Below, in pieces: positions 3,957-62,845 of a stretch of DNA of 64,000 bases (its first letter is position 1; each line of letters starts with the position of its first letter). The stretch spans positions 124,001 through 188,000 of the forward strand of contig JAUIKO010000002.1 in NCBI GenBank assembly GCA_030430755.1, written 5' to 3'. The stretch is from Fimbriimonadia bacterium. GTDB lineage: Bacteria; Armatimonadota; Fimbriimonadia; Fimbriimonadales; Fimbriimonadaceae. Made by a program: the position numbers and the translations under genes. The notes below the pieces were generated by a model that had not been told where the DNA came from, did no database searches, and saw only the letters and a program-made list of their open reading frames with translations.

Positions 3957-5174
3957 CTAACGGTCTATTTCTCCAAGTACAATGTCAATAGAACCTATAA
4001 TTGCTACTAAATCCGATAACATTTTTCCTATAGCCATTACCTCTAATGACTTAAGATTCATAAAACTACTTGGTCTTTCATGCCATCGATATGGTTTATT
4101 ACTACCATTACTTACAATATAAAACCCTAATTCTCCTTTTGAACCTTCTATTCCTACATAAGATTCCCCGACAGGAGGATAGTATCCTTCGGTATATAGT
4201 TTAAAGTGATGAATAAGGGATTCCATAGAAGTATCGAGTTCTTCTCTTGGAGGAGGAGCTATTTTCCTATCAGAAGTTCTCCACTCTCCTTCTGGTAATC
4301 CATCAATAGCTTGCTGAATAATTTTAATACTTTCAAACATTTCAGCAACACGCACTAAATACCTATCATAAACATCACCATGCTCTCCAATAGGTACATC
4401 AAAATCAAAATCTTCGTAGCTGGAATAAGGGTTTGTTTTTCTTAGATCCCATTCAACACCGCTAGCTCTCATGATAGGACCTGAACAACCTAAGTCTAAC
4501 ACCTGTTCTTTTGTTAAGACACCTACATTCTGCGTCCTTTCTACCCAAATAGGATTCTCAGAAAGCATATTTTGTAAATTTTCTAATTCTGGAATAAATT
4601 CATTAATAAACTTTCTTAATTTTTGTTCAAAACCTTCTGGCATATCTCCACGAAGTCCACCAGGAACGATCCAACTAGGCATCATCCTCACTCCGGAAAA
4701 CATTTCAAACATATCTAATATATGTTCTCGTTGAGTCCAGCAATAAAATAAGGGCGTCATAGCTCCCATATCTAATGCATGCGTACCAAGCCAAACCAGA
4801 TGCGATGCAATTCTACTTAACTCTGCTAAAATGACTCTTAAATATTGGCAACGTTTGGGAATATCACAACCTAGTAATTTTTCGACAGCTAATGCATGAG
4901 CTAAGTTATTTCCATTTGCATTTAAGTAATCCATTCGGTCAGTCATCACCACACACTTTTGGTACTGCTGATACTCTGCTTCTTTCTCCATACCCGTGTG
5001 TAAATAGCCAATTTTACATCTACACTGGATAATAGTCTCACCCTCTAGCTCACAAATAACCCGCAACACTCCATGCGTAGAAGGATGCTGTGGACCTATA
5101 TTCACAATCATGGTATTTTCGCCAATACGCTCCATGACCGTTTCAGTTGTAGGCATAAATGGTTGACTTTGCAT
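3957..5174 (-). CDS. nuoD: NADH-quinone oxidoreductase subunit D
   Basis: The 49-kDa subunit of complex I, which forms part of the quinone-binding pocket where the peripheral and membrane arms meet. Diagnostic motifs are NIGPQHPSTHGVLR near the N-terminus (with the quinone-site His), YLHTGMEKEAE, DRMDYLNANGNN, and the C-terminal IVLGEIDR. The length (405 residues) is normal. It begins a two-gene unit with nuoE; nuoA, nuoB and nuoC, which usually precede it, are absent, and a 350-bp non-coding stretch lies upstream. With menaquinone genes in the same window, the electron acceptor is probably menaquinone (inference). Confidence 0.96.
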   Translation of the reverse strand: MQSQPFMPTTETVMERIGENTMIVNIGPQHPSTHGVLRVICELEGETIIQCRCKIGYLHTGMEKEAEYQQYQKCVVMTDRMDYLNANGNNLAHALAVEKLLGCDIPKRCQYLRVILAELSRIASHLVWLGTHALDMGAMTPLFYCWTQREHILDMFEMFSGVRMMPSWIVPGGLRGDMPEGFEQKLRKFINEFIPELENLQNMLSENPIWVERTQNVGVLTKEQVLDLGCSGPIMRASGVEWDLRKTNPYSSYEDFDFDVPIGEHGDVYDRYLVRVAEMFESIKIIQQAIDGLPEGEWRTSDRKIAPPPREELDTSMESLIHHFKLYTEGYYPPVGESYVGIEGSKGELGFYIVSNGSNKPYRWHERPSSFMNLKSLEVMAIGKMLSDLVAIIGSIDIVLGEIDR

Positions 5175-5500
5175 AGATTAATTCCCTAATAGTTATATCA
5201 TCGGCATAAATAAAATGAAAACCAAGTACAGGTTACCGCAGGAAACATCCTTTTCTACAATAATTTGGAGTATTTCATGTATTATAAATAGCTTTATCCT
5301 TTTGTTGAGAGCAACAGATAATATATGCCCACGCTTGTTAATGGTTCATATCGTAATCACCTTGGTTTTAGGCATTTAGAACTACGTTCAATTTCTTTAA
5401 ACGATAAACTTTAACAGTTTTTCTTAAACAACTGATATTTATTTGAAATATAACATCTTTCAACAGTGACTTTGCTAATTTCTATATGCTGAAATATCCA
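5175..5500. other. Intergenic region upstream of nuoD and of the peptide gene
   Basis: This gap holds the nuoD upstream region (minus) and the leader of the tiny peptide gene (plus). I see no clear -35/-10 pair. A 29-codon frame at 5325-5414 has no ribosome binding site and no match to the peptide pair, so it is not called. A small GTTG/CAAC hairpin lies at about 5303-5314. Confidence 0.4.
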
Positions 5501-5516
5501 TGTAGAGACATCTACA
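5501..5516 (+). promoter_or_regulatory. Hairpin abutting the Shine-Dalgarno of peptide gene 1
   Basis: TGTAGA, loop GACA, TCTACA: a perfect 6-bp stem. Its last base is the first A of the AAGGAG ribosome binding site (5516-5521). The second peptide gene also has a hairpin just before its ribosome binding site, which suggests a conserved 5' leader architecture. Confidence 0.5.
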
Positions 5517-5527
5517 AGGAGTAAATA

Positions 5528-5617
5528 ATGAACAACAGAATCTTTAACAGAACAGACACCAGAGAAACAGAAATCAGAATAGCTAATGAAGTTATATATG
5601 ATATATCTACAGGATAA
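5528..5617 (+). CDS. 29-residue peptide, paralogue of the one at 62678
   Basis: A tiny gene, ATG to TAA, with a strong ribosome binding site AAGGAG ending 6 bases before the ATG. The product begins MNNRIFNRTD and ends IANEVIYDISTG. It aligns without gaps to the peptide at 62678-62767: 18 of 29 residues are identical, concentrated in the N-terminal NRIF.RTD and the C-terminal I.IANEVIYD block, ending in Gly. Where the residues agree, several codons differ only in the third base (Asp, Ala, Asn, Val, Ile, Gly), as expected for a translated product under selection. The peptide is hydrophilic, has no Cys and has no signal or membrane segment. It stands alone on the plus strand between two minus-strand genes. 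I do not recognise the family; a signalling peptide, a modified-peptide precursor or a small regulator are all possible. Confidence 0.75.
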   Translation: MNNRIFNRTDTRETEIRIANEVIYDISTG

Positions 5618-5627
5618 TACGATTATA

Positions 5628-5652
5628 GTGGTGTATTTTCTAATATCACCAC
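5628..5652 (+). terminator. Short hairpin after peptide gene 1
   Basis: GTGGTG (5628-5633) pairs with CACCAC (5647-5652), 10 bases after the peptide stop codon. The stem is only 6 bp and the following sequence is AT-rich without a clean T run, so it is a weak terminator candidate. Confidence 0.35.
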
Positions 5653-5757
5653 ATATTCTTAATATTATCTAGCTAGCTTAATCTCAAGACTATAAAAAAC
5701 AAAGAGAACAACTTATAAATTTAACAGGTTTTTTAAAATCCCACTAAGATACAACAT

Positions 5758-6654
5758 TTAAAACTCATCGTTTTCGGGGGAGAAAAAACTTATACGTCTT
5801 CCACTACTAGAATAACCTAATCTATTTGAAGTGCCAGATGATATAGAAGACCTATCATCCACTTCCCTTTGGAACTCCTTATTAAAATCCAATACCCCGA
5901 CAGAACCATCTGAAAAAACAACGAGAGCATGCTTTCCATATGCATTAAAACCTTCTTGATCCATCTTATAACTCCCTAATTGCTTAATATCACTCCCAAT
6001 TATAACAGGTGGGTAATCTAAACTGGATAATTGTTCGTTTGATGAAATTCTACCTGGGGTTTTTAAACAAGGATTGGTAATAGCAAATCCATTATAATTT
6101 GCCTTTCCCATTCCATTCCACATTAAAGGAGTTTTCGAAGGGTTTATAATTTGCTGCAAGGGTATCTGATGTAATAAACCATTGTAAGCAAAACCACAAG
6201 GAATAGGTTTTTTTGCTCTCACATTCCTTCCTTTTTTAACTTCTAGTGTAGGTAAACCAGGAGATATAAAATGTTCAGTTCTTTGTATATATGGAAGAAT
6301 TGCATGTGACCAATAAATTTTATCTCCGTCCATTATTTCTGGTAGATCATGATATTGATCAGAAATCCATCCTGAAGGCATAGCTACTGGAGCTGGAATA
6401 CCATCTAAACAACGTAAATTACCTGTATCGGAGTCGACAGCATATCCAGAAGGAAACATATGATCATGTTCTTGTGCATACATAATAGCAGCCATTCCAA
6501 GTTGTTTTAAATTTTTCGCTGCAGCTGTCTTATTGCCACTTTCCATAAATTTGGTTATCTGAGGAAAACTAATGACAAGTAATATAGTGATTATGAATAT
6601 GACTATCATCAGTTCAGCTAAACTATATCCATGTTCATTTCTTATATTCCTCAT
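5758..6654 (-). CDS. Type IV pilin-like protein (PVC-type pseudopilin)
   Basis: The N-terminus, MRNIRNEHG followed by YSLAELMIVIFIITILLVIS, is a class III signal: prepilin peptidase would cut after Gly9, and the mature protein has the conserved Glu5 and a long hydrophobic helix. The 250-residue globular part contains a helix continuing as KNLKQLGMAAIMYAQEHD and, near the end, KHALVVFSDGSVGVLDF. This resembles the His-to-DG motif of the large family of pseudopilins in Planctomycetes, Verrucomicrobia and Lentisphaerae. Such proteins assemble into type II secretion or pilus-like fibres. No other secretion gene lies nearby, so it is a stand-alone copy, as is common in those phyla. It supports, but does not prove, a PVC affiliation. 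Confidence 0.85.
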   Translation of the reverse strand: MRNIRNEHGYSLAELMIVIFIITILLVISFPQITKFMESGNKTAAAKNLKQLGMAAIMYAQEHDHMFPSGYAVDSDTGNLRCLDGIPAPVAMPSGWISDQYHDLPEIMDGDKIYWSHAILPYIQRTEHFISPGLPTLEVKKGRNVRAKKPIPCGFAYNGLLHQIPLQQIINPSKTPLMWNGMGKANYNGFAITNPCLKTPGRISSNEQLSSLDYPPVIIGSDIKQLGSYKMDQEGFNAYGKHALVVFSDGSVGVLDFNKEFQREVDDRSSISSGTSNRLGYSSSGRRISFFSPENDEF

Positions 6655-7931: not shown

Positions 7932-8968
7932 ATTTTCTAACCTCGACATACCTTTATATTGAAAAACATCCACATATACCAAGAGATTGGATTATCCCCA
8001 TTATTATTATTGGTATATCTGCTTTTTGTACACTTTTAACCACACCACTTGTTCGTAAATATGCTAACTATTTTAAAATCCTAGATTTTCCAGACGACGA
8101 AGACCGCAAAATCCACCAAAAGCCTGTCCCAAGACTTGGAGGCATATCTCTCTTTACCGCAATCTTTTTCACGTTTCTAGCAACACATCTTACACAAAGT
8201 AGTAGTTATTCAGAAGCATCCTCTATCTATGCATTATTTATATGTAGTATGTGCATTATTGTTTTTGGATCTCTTGATGATAAATTTAATTTATCACCAA
8301 GAATTCAACTTATTTTTCTGATAGGGATAGGTTTTTTGGTTCAATATATATCCAATGCTAGTATACAAATTCCTTTGCATCACAATCAAATATTTGCACC
8401 ATTAGGAGAATTTTCATTCCTTCTTAGTTGGATCGCAACGGCTATCTATATTTTCTTTATCACAAAAACCACCGATACCATTGATGGCATCGATGGATTA
8501 GCAACAAGTTTAGCAATCATATCTAGTGCGACAATACTTATTTTTTCCACTTATATACATCACCATTTTTTAATGTTCCTCTCGGCAAGCATTATAGGTT
8601 CGTGCCTAGCTTTTCTAGTATTCAACTTACCTCCTGCTAAAATCTTTTTAGGAACCGGAGGATCACAACTTCTTGGCTTTCTACTAGCATCTTGCACACT
8701 CATTTTCCCTATTCATAACTTTCAAACGTACATGTATACAGTTCCTTTATTTCTATTCGGAGTACAAATTTTTGATATCTTTAACGTCATTGTAAGAAGG
8801 GTTTTATCTAGACAACCTATTATGCAAGCTGATAAAAGACATATCCATCATATCCTTATCCAGAAAGGATTAAGTCATACACAAACAACTTTTTTACTCT
8901 GTTTTACATCATTAATTCTATGCTTATCTCTTGTAGGCATGGTAATCTATCTACAAGGTAGGTTATAA
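7928..8968 (+). CDS. WecA-like UDP-GlcNAc:undecaprenyl-phosphate GlcNAc-1-P transferase
   Basis: A polytopic membrane enzyme of the MraY/WecA superfamily, with about ten hydrophobic segments in 346 residues. It would transfer a sugar-1-phosphate from a UDP-sugar to undecaprenyl phosphate, starting a surface polysaccharide. Family motifs are PRLGG in the first cytoplasmic loop, the Asp-rich TTDTIDGIDGLATS (metal site), FNLPPAKIFLGTGGSQ and the C-terminal His motif DKRHIHH. The HIHH form and the partner gene wecB directly downstream favour WecA over MraY, since no mur genes are near. It starts within the stop of the dCMP deaminase gene. Confidence 0.88.
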   Translation: MNFLTSTYLYIEKHPHIPRDWIIPIIIIGISAFCTLLTTPLVRKYANYFKILDFPDDEDRKIHQKPVPRLGGISLFTAIFFTFLATHLTQSSSYSEASSIYALFICSMCIIVFGSLDDKFNLSPRIQLIFLIGIGFLVQYISNASIQIPLHHNQIFAPLGEFSFLLSWIATAIYIFFITKTTDTIDGIDGLATSLAIISSATILIFSTYIHHHFLMFLSASIIGSCLAFLVFNLPPAKIFLGTGGSQLLGFLLASCTLIFPIHNFQTYMYTVPLFLFGVQIFDIFNVIVRRVLSRQPIMQADKRHIHHILIQKGLSHTQTTFLLCFTSLILCLSLVGMVIYLQGRL

Positions 8969-14100: not shown

Positions 14101-16146
14101 TCAATCATAAAATATTTCAACTCCTCGCTTTATCAGTTCCTTCTTTATCTTTTCAAAATTTAATTTTATATCCATTCTCTTACTTATATATAATTTCTTT
14201 AAGTTGGAGTATTTCATTAATGCTTGCAAACTATCTGGGCTGCAACACGTTCCACTTAAAACAATAACTTCAATATTATCTGGAAGATTATATATCACAT
14301 TGTCCCACTTAGCTTGACTCATCTTGCAACATTCAAAATTTATATATACTAATTTAGTCAGTTTCTTTAAATTTTCGGCAGCTACTCCGGGATATTTGGT
14401 CCAGGACAAATTTAATACTTCCAAATTTGGGTTCAGGTTCTCCAAGAGTCTTGTCCACTCTTTGCAAGACTCTCTGGTCAGAAAACGATTTGTATTAACA
14501 TTTAATATCTCTAAATTTCCTAGTTCCTTAAACCTTTCAACTCCTTCCCAAGAATAATCATTCATAGTAAATTCAAATACTTCTAGAGAAGCTGGTAACG
14601 AACAAAAAAAATCGTTCCAAATTATTTTAGAAACATGCCCACCAATAAAGCACCCTGCAGCATAAAACTGTTTTAAATTTTTAAAGTTTTTTAAATTTTG
14701 AACATCTAATTCCTTAGTTTGAATATTAGAAATATTTAATATTTCTAAACTTGAAGGCAAAGATGCAAATAATCTAGAAGAATTTATTTCCGATAATAGG
14801 CAGTTGTACAAGTTCAATATTTCTATATTCTGACAACTCTTAAATTCTTCAATACTCTCTCCATGATAATCAGATTCTGTAAATATTACAGTAGTTAACT
14901 TTTTTGGAAGATACCTTATTAATCCATTCCAAGCACAACTATCGTTAAAACAACATGTGGATATTTCAAGGGTATCAAGATCGATACATTGTATTAAATT
15001 TTTGCCCCGCTCTCCTTTGTAATTACATTTTTTTATAATTAATGTATCCAATAATGTAGGGATACCTTCGAATAATAAACCCCAGTCAGATGGTGTCGAA
15101 CTTATCTCTTCTAGTATTAAGCATTTTAAGTTCTTTAGTCTAGCAATATAATTCAAACCAAGGGCTAACACTTTATTACTAGGTCTAGAATAATATCTAT
15201 ATCCCCCTTTTATCCTTAACTTTTCTAAAGATTCAGGTAAATTAGCTACTAACTGAGGAAAATTTTCTTTATCTTTCACTGATGTAAATTCTAAAAAAAA
15301 TTCTTTCTGATGAACTAAACAGCTGAAATCACATTTACCCAGTAATAGATTACTACCCTGGAATCCAGAGTAATGGTTATCGTCTCCATATCTGAAGTCA
15401 TTAATGCTAAAGGATCCTAAGTAGAATTTTTCAACAGTATTGGGTAAATATTTGATAATATTGCTTAATTTACAACATTTAAAAAATCCACCAGTTAAAG
15501 TTAAAGCTTCTAAAGATTTCATATTCGAAAACAATTGCTCTAATAAATATAAGTACTCCTTAACATCCACTATTTTTGTATAGTTGATCTCATATCTATT
15601 AGTAAAAGGGCTATAACTTCTGACATTAGTAGTTGTATTTTCCGTTCCAAAGTGCCGAAAATCAATACCTACAAAATTTAAATATACAAAGTATTCTTGA
15701 ATATTTTTTGTTAATATCGCATCCTTATCCAAGTCAGCATCAAAACATAAATATAAATACTTTATAGGTAAACAGTATGAAGAATCGCCTAAGTGGATTC
15801 TAATTTTTTCTGTTATTTTTATAAGCTGCGGAACTGTTTCCTTGCTGTAAATAGTATAATTCCATATTGAAAGCGAAAGTATCCATTCTATATCTATTTT
15901 TTCTGGAGCTTTATCAAGGAGTATGTAAATACGATCTATAACATAAACTCCATCCATCCCATCATTCATGAAAACTGTTTGTGTATCCTTTAAATAATCC
16001 TGAATAACTTTTTCACAGATTTCATTGGAATAGATAGGTGTAGTATCTTCCACAGCTCTTATTCCTATAGAAACACTCAGTATGAGCGAAGCCATCATTA
16101 TCTTCTCAACAAAATAATAAATCATCTTTTTCCACATACTATCCAT
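14101..16146 (-). CDS. Secreted leucine-rich-repeat protein
   Basis: 681 residues, the largest complete LRR protein here. A hydrophobic N-terminal stretch (MMASLILSVSIGIRA) looks like a signal peptide placed about 17 residues in. From about residue 230 onward the protein is built of paired LRR units of roughly 48 residues, one centred on 'LPSSLEILNIS', the other on 'FKNLKQFYAAGC'. Trp, Tyr-x-Gly and Cys recur at fixed places (W..LI.YLP, Y.GE). It is one of three tandem genes on this strand that share this pattern and so arose by duplication. Export and LRR architecture suggest a protein-binding surface or secreted factor, possibly host-directed (inference). Codon use looks like that of its neighbours. 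Confidence 0.85.
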   Translation of the reverse strand: MDSMWKKMIYYFVEKIMMASLILSVSIGIRAVEDTTPIYSNEICEKVIQDYLKDTQTVFMNDGMDGVYVIDRIYILLDKAPEKIDIEWILSLSIWNYTIYSKETVPQLIKITEKIRIHLGDSSYCLPIKYLYLCFDADLDKDAILTKNIQEYFVYLNFVGIDFRHFGTENTTTNVRSYSPFTNRYEINYTKIVDVKEYLYLLEQLFSNMKSLEALTLTGGFFKCCKLSNIIKYLPNTVEKFYLGSFSINDFRYGDDNHYSGFQGSNLLLGKCDFSCLVHQKEFFLEFTSVKDKENFPQLVANLPESLEKLRIKGGYRYYSRPSNKVLALGLNYIARLKNLKCLILEEISSTPSDWGLLFEGIPTLLDTLIIKKCNYKGERGKNLIQCIDLDTLEISTCCFNDSCAWNGLIRYLPKKLTTVIFTESDYHGESIEEFKSCQNIEILNLYNCLLSEINSSRLFASLPSSLEILNISNIQTKELDVQNLKNFKNLKQFYAAGCFIGGHVSKIIWNDFFCSLPASLEVFEFTMNDYSWEGVERFKELGNLEILNVNTNRFLTRESCKEWTRLLENLNPNLEVLNLSWTKYPGVAAENLKKLTKLVYINFECCKMSQAKWDNVIYNLPDNIEVIVLSGTCCSPDSLQALMKYSNLKKLYISKRMDIKLNFEKIKKELIKRGVEIFYD

Positions 16147-16295: not shown

Positions 16296-17918
16296 TTAAG
16301 CAGAAGTACTGCTAGAGTCATCCGAATCTTCTGGAGTATCACCCATAAATCCAGAACCACTTAATACCTTTACACCTCTTCCACTGATTGAAATGTATCC
16401 TTGGCTATGGTCATTAATATTATAATTATGAGAAGAATTCGGCATTGCTATCCGAATATTTTTCTTGCATACTTCTAGGTTATATGGAACGAGAAAATCT
16501 AAATTATCTACTACAAATAAATCCACCGAATCTGGCAATAAAGAGAAAATTCTTTTCCAACTAGATACTTCAGAAATAGGGCACTTTCTAAGCTTTAAAT
16601 AAACCAAATGTTTAAATGATCTAAATACATCTGGAGATGAACCATCATAGTCTGAACCTCCCAAAGAAATTTTTTCAAGAGACTTAGGGAAAGCATGTAT
16701 ACAATCACCCCAGCCAGTATAATTACTAGGCAGCGGTAAGCTCCATACTATTTTTTTTAAGTTTATACATCTACTTAAATCTAACATATCCACATTAACA
16801 GAAACATTTTTTAACACCAGCTCTTCTAGCTCTTCTGAAGGATTTACTTTTAAATAATCATTCAATGGTTCCATACCACTAGAAGGTGCCAAATAAACCT
16901 TTTTCATTCTGTATTTATTTAACAACGTGTCTATGCCAGAACCATTCCAATTGGTTTTTTGCAAATATATACTTTTCAATGAATCATGAAATGAACCTAT
17001 TAGATGATTCCAATTCTCTATGTCTTCGAAATAAAGATGATCTAATTTTATTGATTTTAAATTTGAAAACCTTTTAAAGGAACTTATATTTTCACCATTA
17101 TAATTGCTTTTAGATAAATCTAGCACTTCGATAGATTCTGGCAATTGTTCTAAGACTCTCACCCATTCTTTAGGTAATAAATTAACTTTGTGTAAGCAAA
17201 TACTTTTTAAACCAGTTAATTTTCCTAAAATCTGCTCTAATACATCATCATTTCCTTGACTCCTATATTCGCTTAGATCTACCTCTGAAACGTTTATCTG
17301 ATACTCAAACAAACTCCAAATACTCCCATTCTTCTGGCTCTCGTCTTTTAGAACAAACTTATCTAAGCAATGAATATCTAAAAAATTAAAAAATTGAAAA
17401 ATGGATCTATCTATGATTTTAAGAATAATAGTATGAACACTCTTTCCATTTATACATTTTTCATAAATCAATTCTTTTTCTGGACTTTGTTCTGAAGCAA
17501 ATAAGCAAAGTTCGGAATCATTTAAACCTCTGTTAAACTTTATATTAGATATATTAAATTGAAATTCTGGCATCCGATACTTCTCGGCAATTAAAGCTTT
17601 TAATTCAAACAATTTTTCAAAATCGTCCGGTTTAATAATCCTATCTTTCCAAGGATCTGAAGTATTTAGATATTCGATTATTTTCGGTTCATTATAAAAA
17701 GAAAGATAATCATCTAATAATATAATAAAATCTCGAGTATCGCTGCATTCTACAAGATCTTTTTTAAAAGATTCATACACATTTTCTTTCCTTTCTAAAA
17801 AATTCATGTTTGGTGCCTTTTTAAAAGACTTACATCCACACATGCCAAACCCAATAGAATTATTAAAAAAGAATTGTATTGATACTACGATAGCAAATAA
17901 AGTTTTTATTCTCCACAT
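16296..17918 (-). CDS. Secreted leucine-rich-repeat protein
   Basis: 540 residues from the ATG at 17918; a GTG one codon earlier is equally possible. The N-terminus has a basic start and a hydrophobic stretch (TLFAIVVSIQFFF) that reads as a signal peptide, followed by a Cys-containing segment (GFGMCGCKSF). The region from about residue 230 to 500 has paired LRR units such as VLEQLPESIEVLDLSKSNY and FKRFSNLKSIKLDHL, the same double unit as in the flanking LRR genes. The C-terminus is acidic and Ser-rich (EDSDDSSSTSA), and the frame continues past the stop with more of the same composition. It is the middle gene of a three-gene tandem family. Function unknown. Confidence 0.85.
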   Translation of the reverse strand: MWRIKTLFAIVVSIQFFFNNSIGFGMCGCKSFKKAPNMNFLERKENVYESFKKDLVECSDTRDFIILLDDYLSFYNEPKIIEYLNTSDPWKDRIIKPDDFEKLFELKALIAEKYRMPEFQFNISNIKFNRGLNDSELCLFASEQSPEKELIYEKCINGKSVHTIILKIIDRSIFQFFNFLDIHCLDKFVLKDESQKNGSIWSLFEYQINVSEVDLSEYRSQGNDDVLEQILGKLTGLKSICLHKVNLLPKEWVRVLEQLPESIEVLDLSKSNYNGENISSFKRFSNLKSIKLDHLYFEDIENWNHLIGSFHDSLKSIYLQKTNWNGSGIDTLLNKYRMKKVYLAPSSGMEPLNDYLKVNPSEELEELVLKNVSVNVDMLDLSRCINLKKIVWSLPLPSNYTGWGDCIHAFPKSLEKISLGGSDYDGSSPDVFRSFKHLVYLKLRKCPISEVSSWKRIFSLLPDSVDLFVVDNLDFLVPYNLEVCKKNIRIAMPNSSHNYNINDHSQGYISISGRGVKVLSGSGFMGDTPEDSDDSSSTSA

Positions 17919-18136
17919 CACAATACTAGTATGTGGTTAAAATCTAAAAACTTTATATTTTAATTTACCCTTGTAGAAATACTTGGCCTTTTGTAGGACC
18001 TATTCTACTTAATATAAGCACGTAATTTTATATTCAGATATATCTAAGCAACCATTCCAAGTATAGTTTTTGATTATTAAACATCTTATCTAAAAAGAAC
18101 AACACTTGGTAAGTTCTGAAATGTATTAAAACTTAA

Positions 18137-19216
18137 TCACTCTATTTTTTCTGGAGAAAGAAATCTATTGGTACAATCTAAAACGATCTGATCTAAATTA
18201 AAATCTGCAGGTAAATAAATTTCTCGTAAATTACAAAATTTACTTAAATAAATCATTCCATTCCCATTCCAATTCGAATGATCTAAATTAATAACTTCTA
18301 TAGAAATAGGAAGGTTCTCTAATAATTCATCCCAATTTTTGGGATCATCAAATATGCAGTAACTTAAATCAATCCCCTTTAGTTCTGTACAATTAGCTAT
18401 ATTATCAACAAGAACTCCTTGATAATTACTATTGCTAAAATCAAGATATTCTATATTTTTCGGCATTGAACAGAGTAACATCTTCCACACTTCTCTAAAG
18501 AGCTTAACTCTTTGCATATGAAGTCGTTTTAGATCTTGCAGTGAAGCAATGTAACTTACTAGTCCGTAATCATATTCAGCTACCTCACGCCCAGAAATAT
18601 CGAGCTCAGTGATATCACTGGTTAAAATCCTATGAAGGGCACCAAAAGGTCTTCGATTTAGCGCTCCGCATAAGACAATTTTTTTTAAATTGTCTTTCCA
18701 AGTTTTATTAATACATAGACATATATTCCAATCCCAAACACTAATAATAATTTCATTTAAATATAGACCCACTATATTATCTCGATGGGGATATTTTTCA
18801 AAATAAGCATATGAACCATAATTTTCAAATTCAGTACTAGTCATTTCTCGATTAAAGTGAAATTTACTAATACCTATTGTAAAATCAGGATCTTTTGTTA
18901 AATGCTTACATCTACAAACAAGATCCCTGAATACCATAAAAACATCGAGATCTACTGCTGTGTTTTCCCAATATTTTGGATCACTTATTTGCCTTATACA
19001 TTTTTTTTTGGGATGAAGCTGCAAAATAACATGTAAGTATTGTAACTTATTCGATATACTCGATGTATTTTTTAATTTCTCAATAATTTGATCAATATCT
19101 TCATCAAACTTTATGTTTTTCTTAGAAATACAGAAACAAGGATAAGCGATTAGAACTGAATTGAATAATATTAATAAAATATATATATTTAATAAAGCTT
19201 TATAGACTATCTTCAT
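18137..19216 (-). CDS. Secreted leucine-rich-repeat protein, short form
   Basis: 359 residues, the shortest of the three tandem LRR genes. A signal peptide is likely (LLNIYILLILFNSVLIAYPC). LRR units begin near residue 200: LTSDITELDISG, IASLQDLKRLHMQ, SMPKNIEYLDFSNSNY, LPISIEVINLDHSNW. The 'LP..IE.L/I..SN' phrase and the following Asn/Tyr-x-G spacing are shared with its neighbours. It looks like a version with fewer repeats, consistent with gain and loss of units after duplication. It ends without the acidic tail seen in the middle gene. Confidence 0.83.
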   Translation of the reverse strand: MKIVYKALLNIYILLILFNSVLIAYPCFCISKKNIKFDEDIDQIIEKLKNTSSISNKLQYLHVILQLHPKKKCIRQISDPKYWENTAVDLDVFMVFRDLVCRCKHLTKDPDFTIGISKFHFNREMTSTEFENYGSYAYFEKYPHRDNIVGLYLNEIIISVWDWNICLCINKTWKDNLKKIVLCGALNRRPFGALHRILTSDITELDISGREVAEYDYGLVSYIASLQDLKRLHMQRVKLFREVWKMLLCSMPKNIEYLDFSNSNYQGVLVDNIANCTELKGIDLSYCIFDDPKNWDELLENLPISIEVINLDHSNWNGNGMIYLSKFCNLREIYLPADFNLDQIVLDCTNRFLSPEKIE

Positions 19217-43902: not shown

Positions 43903-45162
43903 ATGTCCTTATTTAAACCACTCTATACATTAAATACAAAGTTAAAAGAAACTTCTATCGATATGATCGTAGCCATATACTTTATATTTAACCTTGGTGC
44001 ATATCTATCAAGATCCATTCATAGTATATGGTTTGAAATGAACAATCAGCTAGAATTATATACAATTACATGTATCAGTATGTCTGTTACTGGACTTCTA
44101 TCGTTCTTGTTCAGCAAAATCATTAATCGTTACTCATTTCTTACACTTTTAATATTATCTAGCACCACTTTTGGAGTAGGTTTAATATTTAGAACTTTAA
44201 CTTTTTCGTGGTATATTGCTATTTTTTCTGGAGTCATGAGTGGAATGGGAATTAGTTTATTTTTAATGACCTGCAAAACAATGATCTATGGGATTAGAAA
44301 TGAGACTGAAAAGAAAAAGAAATACGGAGATATAGGTATTTTTGTTAGTCTAGCAAATCTTTTTGGCACCATTCTGGCAACTAATTTTGTGAGTTTAGCC
44401 ATCTTAGGAAACCATTCTATCACGGCTATTCTCTTATCTGCAGGAATTATTTCTGGTCTCAGCTGGATTCCTTATTGGTATGCCAATAAAAAAAAATCAG
44501 ACTTTTACGTTCATACATTCAACTACCATTCCCCATCGTTTCTAACATATAAAAAGTTATTTGAGCATTCGAGATACTTATTTTTATTCATAACTATTTA
44601 CAATTTTTTAAGTGGATTAGCATTCTATTTTATTCATCCATTTTTTGCAATATTTTTAAATAGAACTGGTATAGATATTTCTCATATTGGAATCATTACA
44701 TCCGTACCGATCTTACTAGGAGCTATCATACAAAAAAATATTAGCCTAACAAGTCTTAGAGATAAACTACTTTCTGGTTTTTTTTATGGAAACATTTCAC
44801 TTTTTACAATTACAATATTTATATATATCTATCTAAAATCTAGTGTATACCTTCCATATGCAATCTTTATGTTCTACATTGTTTCGATCGTTACAACATA
44901 TTTTGAAAAAATAATAGAACTCAACCTTTATCCTAAACAGTACGCAACTTCTTGTTTTGGACTTGCCTTAACATTTAATCTTATTGGAAATATTATCGGA
45001 ACAAGAATTGGTGGAACACTCTTGAAGAACTACCAAGAAGAATATGCTGTACAGTTATCAGCAATTACATTCATCATAGCTTTATCTGCTGGTTTTGTCT
45101 TTCTCTTCAAACATGCTTCTTGTAATAAAGCAAAAATAATTGAAAATACATATCTTAAATAA
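43903..45162 (+). CDS. MFS-like transporter
   Basis: 419 residues with about eleven or twelve hydrophobic helices spread evenly along the chain. The layout, with a central charged loop (NKKKSDFYVHTF at about residue 196), fits the major facilitator superfamily, but the classic loop-2 signature is not obvious, so this is a fold-level call. Substrate unknown. A stable hairpin lies in its upstream region. Confidence 0.7.
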   Translation: MSLFKPLYTLNTKLKETSIDMIVAIYFIFNLGAYLSRSIHSIWFEMNNQLELYTITCISMSVTGLLSFLFSKIINRYSFLTLLILSSTTFGVGLIFRTLTFSWYIAIFSGVMSGMGISLFLMTCKTMIYGIRNETEKKKKYGDIGIFVSLANLFGTILATNFVSLAILGNHSITAILLSAGIISGLSWIPYWYANKKKSDFYVHTFNYHSPSFLTYKKLFEHSRYLFLFITIYNFLSGLAFYFIHPFFAIFLNRTGIDISHIGIITSVPILLGAIIQKNISLTSLRDKLLSGFFYGNISLFTITIFIYIYLKSSVYLPYAIFMFYIVSIVTTYFEKIIELNLYPKQYATSCFGLALTFNLIGNIIGTRIGGTLLKNYQEEYAVQLSAITFIIALSAGFVFLFKHASCNKAKIIENTYLK

Positions 45163-50844: not shown

Positions 50845-51193
50845 TTCCTTATAGAATCAATAAAAAAGATAGACCTTCCATCAACATAGTTTTCACCGCA
50901 AAGACAATACACTTATTTTAATCACGCACCATATTCAATAACATCCTGCCTGCAAAACATTGCTGCAAAAAAAGCAATGTTTTGTTTTTCTACAAATCAA
51001 CGTTTAGAAAAATAAAAAAATATCCGATACATGCCTAGAGATGGAATGGATCTACTAGTAATTGCACCTGATAGAGTTTTAGGATGTCTCTATGTACATA
51101 AAACCTATCCATTCACAAGTTCATATCCATACATCAAAAACATTCAAAATAAAAATTACTTCATATAAAAGGCATTACAAATTTGGAGAAAAA
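50845..51193. other. Gap with terminator and lipoprotein leader
   Basis: It contains the terminator at 50953-50989 and the leader of the Asp/Met-repeat lipoprotein. A 45-codon frame at 51031-51168 has no ribosome binding site and is not called. The long frame's extension upstream of 51194 is also not used. Confidence 0.4.
50953..50989 (+). terminator. Rho-independent terminator
   Basis: CAAAACATTGCT pairs with AGCAATGTTTTG (12 bp, 8-base loop), followed by TTTTT at 50985-50989. It is about 110 bp after the stop of the secreted protein gene. Confidence 0.85.
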
Positions 51194-53293
51194 ATGAAAG
51201 AAAATAGAAACCAAAAAATTTTTCACATAGCTGGAGCAGTTGTTTTAATGGGATTAGTAGGGTGTGGTGGAACCAATACAGTATCTACTACATCCATATC
51301 GAATAATAAAAATGGTACATATAAGAACTTTATAACCAGAATGGATAATACTCCCTCTGATATTACTGCTGAAACAATCTACAACAAAGTATTTAACTAT
51401 CAAAAAATAACTCCAGAAGATGTAAAAGCCTTAGAAAAAAACGGTTCAAATGAAAACGGCTGGGTTGTAAATACATCACCAAGTGGTACTGTAATCATAA
51501 AAATTGTAATGAGTACACCTTCTGTACTTATTACAGCAGAAGAAATTAACGCAGATGAAACGAGTGATGTTGATACAAAAAAACAATCTTTCTCATACTA
51601 CTGGAACGAAGACAACACAATGTTAATACCAGAAGGATACAAAGGTAGTAGTGCTGTTCAAGTACAGAACGTAGAAAATCCTACACTAGAAAAAGAACCT
51701 ACAGTAGAAAATGATAGCATAAGTTCTAATAGTACTGCTACTAATCCAACAATAAATCCTACACTAGAAAAAGAACCTACAGTAGATCATAATGGCATAA
51801 GTTCTAATGTAGTAAAACAAATGGATGGAGACGAGGAACAACTAAGTAGCCCAACAACAGAACTGCCAGTATATACAAAACATAAAGATGACATGAATTC
51901 TGACGATCCAGAATATATTAGTACAGAAGATCACAGGAGTCTTGATAAAGAACAGTACGCTTCGCCAGAAAACGATTATAAAGATAATCGCCAATACATG
52001 TACGAAGAAAATAATATTTCAGAAGGAGATCGGCAACATACCCCATCAGAAAATGATATAAATGAAGATGTTTACTACACTACGAATTATTCTCCAGACA
52101 GTTATTCAGAAGAGTATCCTCAGCATGACTCCGTAAGAAATTCACCTCCTTCTTCACCATATAATTCTACTAATTTTAAAGAAGATGTAGAAAACCTCAC
52201 TAAAGTTATGCTGCTTGCAGGTAATCGAGATAATCCAAATATAGGTGATATGCCAAATCCATTACATCTTGCACAAGGATTATTAGGGGCATTACACAAT
52301 AATGCTTATCCTGAATTATTAAAAGATCTTCAGCCAGTATTCAATAAAAATGAAGAAAGCGATGCAGAAACTGATGCAGAAAAAGAAGCTGATGTAATAG
52401 CAAGATTAAAGAATATCGATTTCACTCAAATGGAAGAATATCAAGACCTAACAAGAGCCTTTGAAGAAGCTAAAAATAAAAACAAAGAAGACTCAAACGA
52501 ATCTGGAGAAACTCATGAAAACTCTCTAGATGATCTACGAAAAGCTTCTGTTATTCTTCTTGACGGATTGGCTAAAGCTAGAGAAATGATGTCAAGAGAA
52601 CACCCAGTCGAAAGCCCTAACGATGATTCTATTGGAAATGATATGCCAGGAGACTTGCCAACTGGAGATATGCCAACTGGAGATATGACAGGTGACATGC
52701 CAACGGATATGCCAACTGGAGACATGACAGAAGATATGCCAACTGGAGACATGACAACTGATATGCCAGAAGACCTGCCAGAAGATATGCCAACTGGAGA
52801 CATGCCAGAAGACATGCCAGGAGATATGCCAACTGGAGACATGACAACTGATATGCCAGGAGATATGCCAACTGGAGATATGACAGGAGATATGACAACT
52901 GATATGCCAGGAGATATGTCAACTGGAGACATGACTGGTGACATGCCAACGGGAGACATGACAGAAGATATGCCAACTGGAGACATGACAGAAGATATGC
53001 CAACTGGAGACATGACAACTGATATGCCAGAAGACCTGCCAGAAGATATGCCAACTGGTGACATGCCAACTGGAGACATGGAAACTGGAGATATGCCAGG
53101 AGACATGACAGAAGATATGACAACTGGAGACATGACTGGTGACATGCCAGGAGATATGCCAACGGGAGACATGCCAGAAGATATGCCAGGAGATATGCCA
53201 ACTGGTGACATGCCAACTGGAGACATGGAAACTGGAGATATGCCAGGAGATATGACAGAAGATATGACAACTGGAGATATGACAGAAGCGTAA
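51194..53293 (+). CDS. Lipoprotein with Asp/Met pentapeptide repeat domain
   Basis: 699 residues from the ATG at 51194, chosen because GGAG lies 5 bases before it and the lipoprotein signal (IFHIAGAVVLMGLVGCGG) begins here; the frame itself opens at 51092. The lipidated Cys is about residue 24. A conserved-looking domain of about 130 residues is followed by an acidic, Ser/Asn/Glu-rich region containing NPTLEKEPTV twice, then a helical stretch, then about 215 residues made only of pentads such as GDMPT, GDMTE, EDMPT. The C-terminal domain is about one-fifth Asp and one-fifth Met with no Lys or Cys. It is likely surface-exposed or periplasmic. Met/Asp-rich arrays could bind metal ions, or simply form an extended stalk; no family is recognised. 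Confidence 0.82.
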   Translation: MKENRNQKIFHIAGAVVLMGLVGCGGTNTVSTTSISNNKNGTYKNFITRMDNTPSDITAETIYNKVFNYQKITPEDVKALEKNGSNENGWVVNTSPSGTVIIKIVMSTPSVLITAEEINADETSDVDTKKQSFSYYWNEDNTMLIPEGYKGSSAVQVQNVENPTLEKEPTVENDSISSNSTATNPTINPTLEKEPTVDHNGISSNVVKQMDGDEEQLSSPTTELPVYTKHKDDMNSDDPEYISTEDHRSLDKEQYASPENDYKDNRQYMYEENNISEGDRQHTPSENDINEDVYYTTNYSPDSYSEEYPQHDSVRNSPPSSPYNSTNFKEDVENLTKVMLLAGNRDNPNIGDMPNPLHLAQGLLGALHNNAYPELLKDLQPVFNKNEESDAETDAEKEADVIARLKNIDFTQMEEYQDLTRAFEEAKNKNKEDSNESGETHENSLDDLRKASVILLDGLAKAREMMSREHPVESPNDDSIGNDMPGDLPTGDMPTGDMTGDMPTDMPTGDMTEDMPTGDMTTDMPEDLPEDMPTGDMPEDMPGDMPTGDMTTDMPGDMPTGDMTGDMTTDMPGDMSTGDMTGDMPTGDMTEDMPTGDMTEDMPTGDMTTDMPEDLPEDMPTGDMPTGDMETGDMPGDMTEDMTTGDMTGDMPGDMPTGDMPEDMPGDMPTGDMPTGDMETGDMPGDMTEDMTTGDMTEA
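52640..53286 (+). repeat. 15-bp degenerate coding repeat, about 43 units
   Basis: Units of the form GATATGCCAACTGGA, with variants GACATGACAGAA and so on, run head to tail through the 3' third of the lipoprotein gene. Larger blocks recur (for example the segment around 52735-52810 is repeated around 52985-53060), so units have been copied in groups. All changes keep the reading frame. Confidence 0.9.
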
Positions 53294-53471
53294 TACCAAA
53301 CAGAATAGAATATAAAGTAGTGGACCCAGAACATGACAAAAAGATTTCTGAAGAAAATATGACCACTCTTATTTTTTCAGAAAACTCATTTGATTAGCAT
53401 GAAATCTGTTTGATATTACTAAAACACAAAAAGCATCACAACCGATGCATTAAAAACAAGACAGTACATAT

Positions 53472-62630: not shown

Positions 62631-62656
62631 TTATGCAGGTATTTACACTTGCATAA
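62631..62656 (+). promoter_or_regulatory. Hairpin before the Shine-Dalgarno of peptide gene 2
   Basis: TTATGCAGGT pairs with ACTTGCATAA (10 bp with one G-T wobble) around the loop ATTTAC. It ends 9 bases before the GAGG ribosome binding site (62666-62669). Peptide gene 1 has a hairpin in the corresponding place. Confidence 0.55.
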
Positions 62657-62677
62657 TTATTTAGAGAGGTGAATATG

Positions 62678-62767
62678 ATGAAAAACAGAATCTTTGAAAG
62701 GACAGATGTTTCCGACTTGACAATCACAATAGCAAACGAAGTCATTTATGACAACGGAAGTGGTTAG
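62678..62767 (+). CDS. 29-residue peptide, paralogue of the one at 5528
   Basis: Two ATGs occur in a row (62675, 62678). The second gives exactly 29 residues, the length of the paralogue, and sits 8 bases after GAGG. The product begins MKNRIFERTD and ends IANEVIYDNGSG. It shares 18 of 29 positions with the peptide at 5528-5617, including NRIF, RTD, and IANEVIYD. Of the shared residues, eight (Arg8, Asp10, Ala, Asn, Val, Ile, Asp25, Gly29) use different synonymous codons. The variable middle (VSDLTIT against TREETEIR-like residues) is polar in both. It stands alone on the plus strand between trpS and the MotE-like gene, both minus. A very long hairpin follows. I do not know the family. Confidence 0.78.
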   Translation: MKNRIFERTDVSDLTITIANEVIYDNGSG

Positions 62768-62775
62768 AATAGGAG

Positions 62776-62845
62776 AAAGCTAGTTTTTATCTAAGAAAAA
62801 TCGATATTAGCAAAGTATATTTATTCCTAGATAAAAACTAGCTTT
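62776..62845 (+). terminator. 18-bp perfect stem after peptide gene 2
   Basis: AAAGCTAGTTTTTATCTA (62776-62793) pairs with its exact reverse complement at 62828-62845. The 34-base loop is unusually large for a terminator. It begins 8 bases after the peptide stop codon. Confidence 0.7.

Follow-up and report, generated by a model that had tools for sequence, protein, structure and literature searches.

At least 14 genes for 29-30-residue peptides in one bacterial genome, eight of them tail-to-tail with genes of an MFS transporter subfamily

The mini-gene at 5528-5617 on the plus strand of the window, by which we mean the entire 64,000-nucleotide stretch under analysis (C7:124001-188000), is genuine and encodes a soluble small protein of 29 residues, its translation being judged from selection. 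It belongs to a family with at least 14 members, all encoding peptides of 29-30 residues, in the genome of a single bacterial species, and eight of the copies converge on genes for MFS-type transporters. We tentatively interpret the peptide as a small protein that acts in the cytosol as partner or regulator of the paired transporters, a reading that is supported by linkage and to which we assign a probability of roughly 0.4. The transporter pairing makes the gene more interesting than the initial annotation had it. What emerges is a well-supported small-protein family that standard annotation has missed, with at least 14 copies, mosaic partners, deletion scars and a clear candidate partner. 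The window contains the following features:

5368..5527, plus strand: leader/promoter region of about 160 nt, common 5' boundary TTAGGNATTTAG, common to 12 copies
5497..5520, plus strand: hairpin abutting the Shine-Dalgarno sequence (-10.5 kcal/mol, z -3.9)
5516..5521, plus strand: Shine-Dalgarno sequence AAGGAG, conserved across the leaders of all 12 copies that share this region
5528..5617, plus strand: 29-codon peptide gene MNNRIFNRTDTRETEIRIANEVIYDISTG, ATG...TAA, codon frame under purifying selection over 13 copies
5621..5658, plus strand: hairpin after the stop codon (-12.2, z -4.6 versus shuffles)
5696..5745, plus strand: scar, the promoter region of a deleted MFS transporter gene, judged by its similarity to regions upstream of intact transporters
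43903..45162, plus strand: distant MFS paralogue that shares about 23% identity with the transporters of the peptide-linked subfamily and has no nearby peptide gene
62631..62656, plus strand: hairpin of different sequence (TTATGCA.../...TGCATAA) before the Shine-Dalgarno sequence of the second copy
62678..62767, plus strand: second copy in the window MKNRIFERTDVSDLTITIANEVIYDNGSG, with a further in-frame ATG at 62675
62775..62845, plus strand: strong terminator-type hairpin after the second copy (z -5.9)

Copies of the gene and selection on the reading frame

All properties initially ascribed to the gene at 5528, namely its 29 codons, a strong ribosome binding site and hairpins before and after it, were reproduced. 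The core of the 5' hairpin is the stem TGTAGA-GACA-TCTACA (5501-5516), and the three outer base pairs of the hairpin can engage the GGA of the Shine-Dalgarno sequence. Both hairpins are stronger than shuffled sequence, and of the window's 41 ordinary gene starts just three have a 36-nt upstream fold with z < -2; the hairpin after the stop has no U tract and does not score as an intrinsic terminator. The gene lies in a 583-bp gap between two minus-strand neighbours, nuoD (which starts at 5174) and a DUF1559/prepilin-type gene (which ends at 5758). It had been described as standing alone, but it is one half of a convergent peptide/MFS unit from which the transporter has been deleted.

An ungapped alignment with the peptide encoded at 62678 yields 18 identical residues out of 29, eight of which (R8, D10, A19, N20, V22, I23, D25 and G29) are specified by different codons; these are exactly the counts claimed at the outset. 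The coding signal of this single pair is modest, with 56 of 2000 shuffles being as low. The terminal glycine is shared by the two window copies but is not conserved, as it is absent from all other copies.

The two-member family proposed in the initial annotation turned out to be an undercount. In the draft assembly of this genome (1,478,458 bases, 19 contigs), a DNA search found 12 copies and a peptide profile search 13, that at 62678 included, all of the latter being exactly 29 codons long. An intergenic mini-gene scan of the examined stretches added a divergent 30-residue relative, MKNISICERSDVTLTPIKIKSSVHYLPWEP, on contig C9 (L074:8844-8936), in which the motifs [E/N]R[T/S]D[V/I] and I-x(3)-V-x-Y align with those of the family and which has a hairpin, ribosome site and terminator of its own; since the later profile that recovered this relative already contained it, the E-value obtained there is not independent evidence. 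The concern that the genome might hold no further copies is thus answered by 12 of them, and because the contigs C5, C7 and C12 start inside the gene family, the copy number is a lower bound. One copy (L033:378-467) carries ATT instead of ATG, and its 3' flank runs directly into the leader of the next unit; it is probably a defective, fused copy. A secreted protein of 266 residues that adjoins a peptide unit ends in ...YFNRTDIENLL (L031:9829-9855), resembling the FNRTDI of the peptide; at an E-value of 0.6, this echo is possibly due to chance.

Over codons 2-25 of 13 copies, pN/pS is 0.29 compared with a shuffle mean of 0.73, and none of 500 column shuffles was as low; the value is 1.1 in both wrong frames and 0.94-1.11 in the leader. 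By this small-protein test, the frame is under purifying selection. The earlier claim that the peptide is translated and kept by selection is therefore borne out, and on the codon pattern of the 13-copy family it is clear, indeed conclusive. Residues 18-24 (I-x-N-E-V-V/I-Y) form the most constrained block, in which changes are nearly all synonymous except at residue 19, and constraint is far looser over the final four codons (0.69). Residues 1-24 are constant and residues 25-29 variable. The block IANEVIYD, which had been singled out as the conserved C-terminal part, is borne out for residues 18-24.

In the genome of a sister species (G001; same genus, 97% complete), we found five related MFS genes but neither peptide nor leader, and no related peptide-like mini-genes at its MFS loci or its trpS locus. 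Related genomes had been named as the place to look for further copies; beyond that of the sister species, none turned up in 112 further genomes of the class, in the GTDB r220 genome contigs, in IMG/VR or in plasmids. A search of phages yielded no relative, its two matches of 42% identity (E 6) being attributable to chance, and the peptide has no match in Pfam or NCBIfam. The reach of 29-residue queries is limited: The first profile missed even the L074 member, and very diverged relatives could escape. As the copies are absent from relatives and many in this genome, we regard the pattern as species-level novelty and not as an artefact. The family is not described in the libraries searched, and its absence from the sister species makes it a case of recent small-protein origin.

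Leader, transporter partners and scars

The leader shared by 12 copies has a common 5' boundary that reads TTAGGTATTTAG... and occurs essentially only together with the peptide: It is found nowhere else in this genome or in G001, apart from one partial fragment. AAGGAG directly follows the final hairpin of the leader, TGTAGA-GAYA-TCTACA, which has a weak outer stem capable of pairing with GGAG. Compensatory base-pair changes or covariation were not found within this group, whose sequences are too alike. The diverged orphans at 62678 and L074 carry hairpins of unrelated sequence at the same place, so that the architecture has been kept although the sequence has not. At L033:1211-1259 (G000:C5), the start of a leader is fused directly to a truncated MFS gene, which on its sequence we take to be another recombination or deletion scar.

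Eight peptide copies lie tail-to-tail with MFS-type genes of about 400 codons, two of which are truncated by a contig end or a deletion, and a peptide gene accompanies eight of the eight genes of this MFS subfamily. The stop codons of the pairs are separated by 7, 7, 10, 14, 14, 17, 18 and 83 bp. In seven of these cases the gap is too small for a terminator between the genes, and with stops only 7-18 bp apart overlap of the two transcripts is unavoidable unless transcription stops within coding sequence. The partner protein matches MFS_1 (PF07690) and has no sequence match among solved structures at E 0.01; its subfamily is confined to this genus among the 41 related genomes searched. More distant MFS paralogues, including that at 43903-45162, have no peptide gene. 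Two further distant paralogues in tandem (L074:4350-6871; G000:C9) are located one TPR-domain gene away from the peptide gene at 8844.

The partner genes are mosaics: Their residues 1-52 are nearly invariant (pN 0.00-0.04 versus pS 0.13-0.62), beyond which the middle is of two types and the end of several. The transporter of unit U4 joins a middle of one type to a different end, and this unit combines a U6-like leader (92%) with the tail DISEQ and another transporter end. In unit U7, the leader and codons 1-20 are 96% identical to those of U2 (tail SIWQD), but the unit has its own tail, HIAEE, and a transporter end nearest to that of U8. These mosaics imply that the head of the peptide goes with the leader and its tail with the neighbouring transporter end, an association that may be one of function or of plain linkage.

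Over 50 bp, segment 5696-5745 shares 98% identity with the sequence that precedes an intact MFS gene (L032). A core of 36-37 bp recurs with 94-97% identity upstream of three other MFS genes (L031/L032 subfamily transporters) and with 84-86% identity at three further sites (L030/L033 transporters); a core of 26 bp has one exact match in the window, where none is expected. This similarity indicates that the transporter that once faced the peptide gene at 5528 was deleted and its promoter region left behind. The orphan copies without an adjacent transporter (5528, 62678 and L074) are still recognisable, which means that adjacency is not required.

Several other genes were recorded in the window and around the peptide units. 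Leucine-rich-repeat proteins are encoded at 184-1287, 14101-16146, 16296-17921 and 18137-19216 of the window, and others occur next to peptide units (L030) and in the sister genome; several of them in a reduced genome of 1.5 Mb suggest a host-associated life. A long degenerate repeat of the TGDMP/TTDMP type (52500-53300) forms the C-terminus of a putative lipoprotein (51092-53293). The product of 53546-54589 matches RNA 3'-terminal phosphate cyclase weakly (PF01137, 28 bits), and a probable relative is encoded beside trpS in the sister genome (L094:2050-3090). Between two peptide/MFS units, the region L031:6548-9882 (G000:C7:26547-29881), a candidate RiPP cluster, comprises a 52-codon ORF MENILNEITEEMSQK..., a TIGR04267 HExxH hydroxylase (48 bits, cut-off 40), an ABC transporter and a secreted protein. 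A second HExxH hydroxylase (53 bits) is found together with an ABC transporter and an 84-codon ORF at L072:2479-5014 (G000:C8). The third, at L073:9270-10124 (G000:C7:257269-258123), scores 29 bits, below the cut-off; its ortholog in G001 (L075) neighbours the same transaldolase gene.

Proposed function and rival explanations

The peptides are hydrophilic (GRAVY -0.22 to -0.74) and by inspection have no signal peptide or transmembrane segment; being short as well, they most likely act in the cytosol. Their steady linkage to one transporter subfamily, together with the constraint on the peptide head and on the transporter N-terminus, points to a partner or regulator. The ancestral unit would have been a convergent pair, in which the leader and the peptide gene ran into an MFS transporter gene at the 3' end of the latter. 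Since then, this unit would have been duplicated at least eight times and shuffled by recombination, with orphans such as that at 5528 left over. The constant head (residues 1-24) would perform a common job, and the variable tail (residues 25-29) would sit with a particular transporter end; the hairpin in contact with the ribosome site might control expression, and the 3' ends of the two genes, overlapping in antisense, might add a further layer of control. Both the contact between peptide and transporter and the cytosolic action are what we infer from this arrangement. Co-duplication alone can, however, account for the pairing and plain linkage for the association of tail and transporter end, the three orphans persist without an adjacent transporter, and the sister species keeps its five related MFS genes with no detectable peptide. 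A more elaborate version, in which each variable tail would be matched to the variable half of the partner MFS protein and the constant peptide head and transporter N-terminus would serve as recombination joints for the swapping of matched tail/transporter cassettes, seems to us quite unlikely; it would constitute a new kind of diversifying gene pair, and tail/transporter matching, if functional, would offer a reduced-genome bacterium a new route to diversify its transport.

The conserved, structured leader and the presence of a selected small ORF within a structured transcript might instead suggest that the locus is mainly an RNA element, either a dual-function small RNA of the SgrS/SgrT or VcdRP type or a cis-antisense RNA acting as a control on the mRNA of the convergent transporter, for which the closely spaced stops and the resulting transcript overlap would be well suited. 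There are precedents: VcdP is likewise 29 residues long and is encoded by an RNA that represses mRNAs for sugar uptake (PMC8672173); SgrT is listed with transporters (PMC4021124). Pairing of the leader or coding sequence with the MFS start region is, however, not predicted above shuffles in five units (z -0.53 to +0.44), a result that also counts against the partner reading; the leader group contains no compensatory base-pair changes, and codon-level selection implies that the peptide itself matters. We deem a mainly RNA-based role rather unlikely. The same codon-frame constraint, together with the invariant length, speaks against a passive or selfish repeat, in which the peptide block would be a recombination hinge or a mobile mini-element and the ORF would have no cellular role. 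Such a repeat would account for the sharp common 5' boundary at -160 and for the junctions and scars inside and beside the peptide block, but the genes at 62678 and L074 have the same peptide pattern and architecture in spite of unrelated leaders. We find this explanation very doubtful, and the mobile mini-element in particular is disfavoured by the codon signal.

Two further explanations assume that the peptide leaves the cell or attacks a membrane. As a RiPP-type or exported peptide, it would consist of a leader (residues 1-24) and a core (residues 25-29), be matured by an alpha-ketoglutarate HExxH hydroxylase and be exported by the neighbouring MFS or ABC transporter; its constant head and variable tail fit this division, the genome holds three HExxH enzymes, and one of these lies with an ABC transporter between two peptide units. 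This idea is weakened because the HExxH clusters have small ORFs of their own as candidate precursors, directly upstream of the enzyme in L031 (6548-6706, 52 codons) and likewise on C8 (L072:4760-5014), because 12 of the 14 peptide genes have no such enzyme next to them, and because SPASM and PqqD domains are absent from this genome and the sister genome, control genomes being positive. Moreover, the sister species has an HExxH enzyme and no peptide, and the tail comprises only five residues, none of them Cys; we hold this route to be unlikely. Even less probable, in our estimation, is a peptide bacteriocin with a convergent membrane immunity or efflux gene, diversified by cassette exchange in the style of pore-forming colicins, which have their immunity gene on the opposite strand (PMC9517006). 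All eight pairs do place the peptide gene tail-to-tail with that of a polytopic membrane protein, and the variable tail is co-inherited with the transporter end, but a hydrophilic 29-mer with no toxin domain in Pfam or NCBIfam and no recognised export signal does not look membrane-active. In addition, the transporter is most conserved at its N-terminus and not in the part co-inherited with the tail, and orphan peptides persist without a linked transporter.

Other candidates are not supported. A type I toxin-antitoxin system is disfavoured by GRAVY values that leave no hydrophobic membrane-spanning peptide, a leader peptide or attenuator by the lack of a co-oriented gene directly downstream, the facing neighbour being convergent at the loci examined, and a precursor of the PQQ or mycofactocin type by a genome devoid of SPASM and PqqD.

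Comparison with known systems

Among the systems considered, pore-forming (ionophoric) colicins share with the peptide units the convergent arrangement of a variable gene of secreted type and a gene for a polytopic membrane protein (PMC9517006); unlike these large, multi-domain proteins, the peptide has 29 hydrophilic residues, and its partner is a full MFS transporter. The precursors of alpha-ketoglutarate-HExxH RiPP pathways, such as the PflA/PosA, ChlBH and BpmH clusters, are similarly small, with constant and variable parts, in genomes with HExxH hydroxylases (PMC12636437), but at nearly all of our loci the peptide gene and the enzyme gene lie apart. Examples of small soluble proteins acting on transporters are few, and most come from enterobacteria. 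SgrS/SgrT and VcdRP/VcdP resemble the family in combining a short structured transcript, a small soluble protein and a link to transporters (PMC8672173, PMC4021124). They are single-copy, trans-acting and gammaproteobacterial, whereas here at least 14 copies occur in tail-to-tail association with a transporter, the search for base pairing with the start region of the transporter gave none, and the collections searched revealed no sequence similarity. Without claiming membership in either group, we consider SgrT and VcdP to be the closest working analogies for this peptide family.
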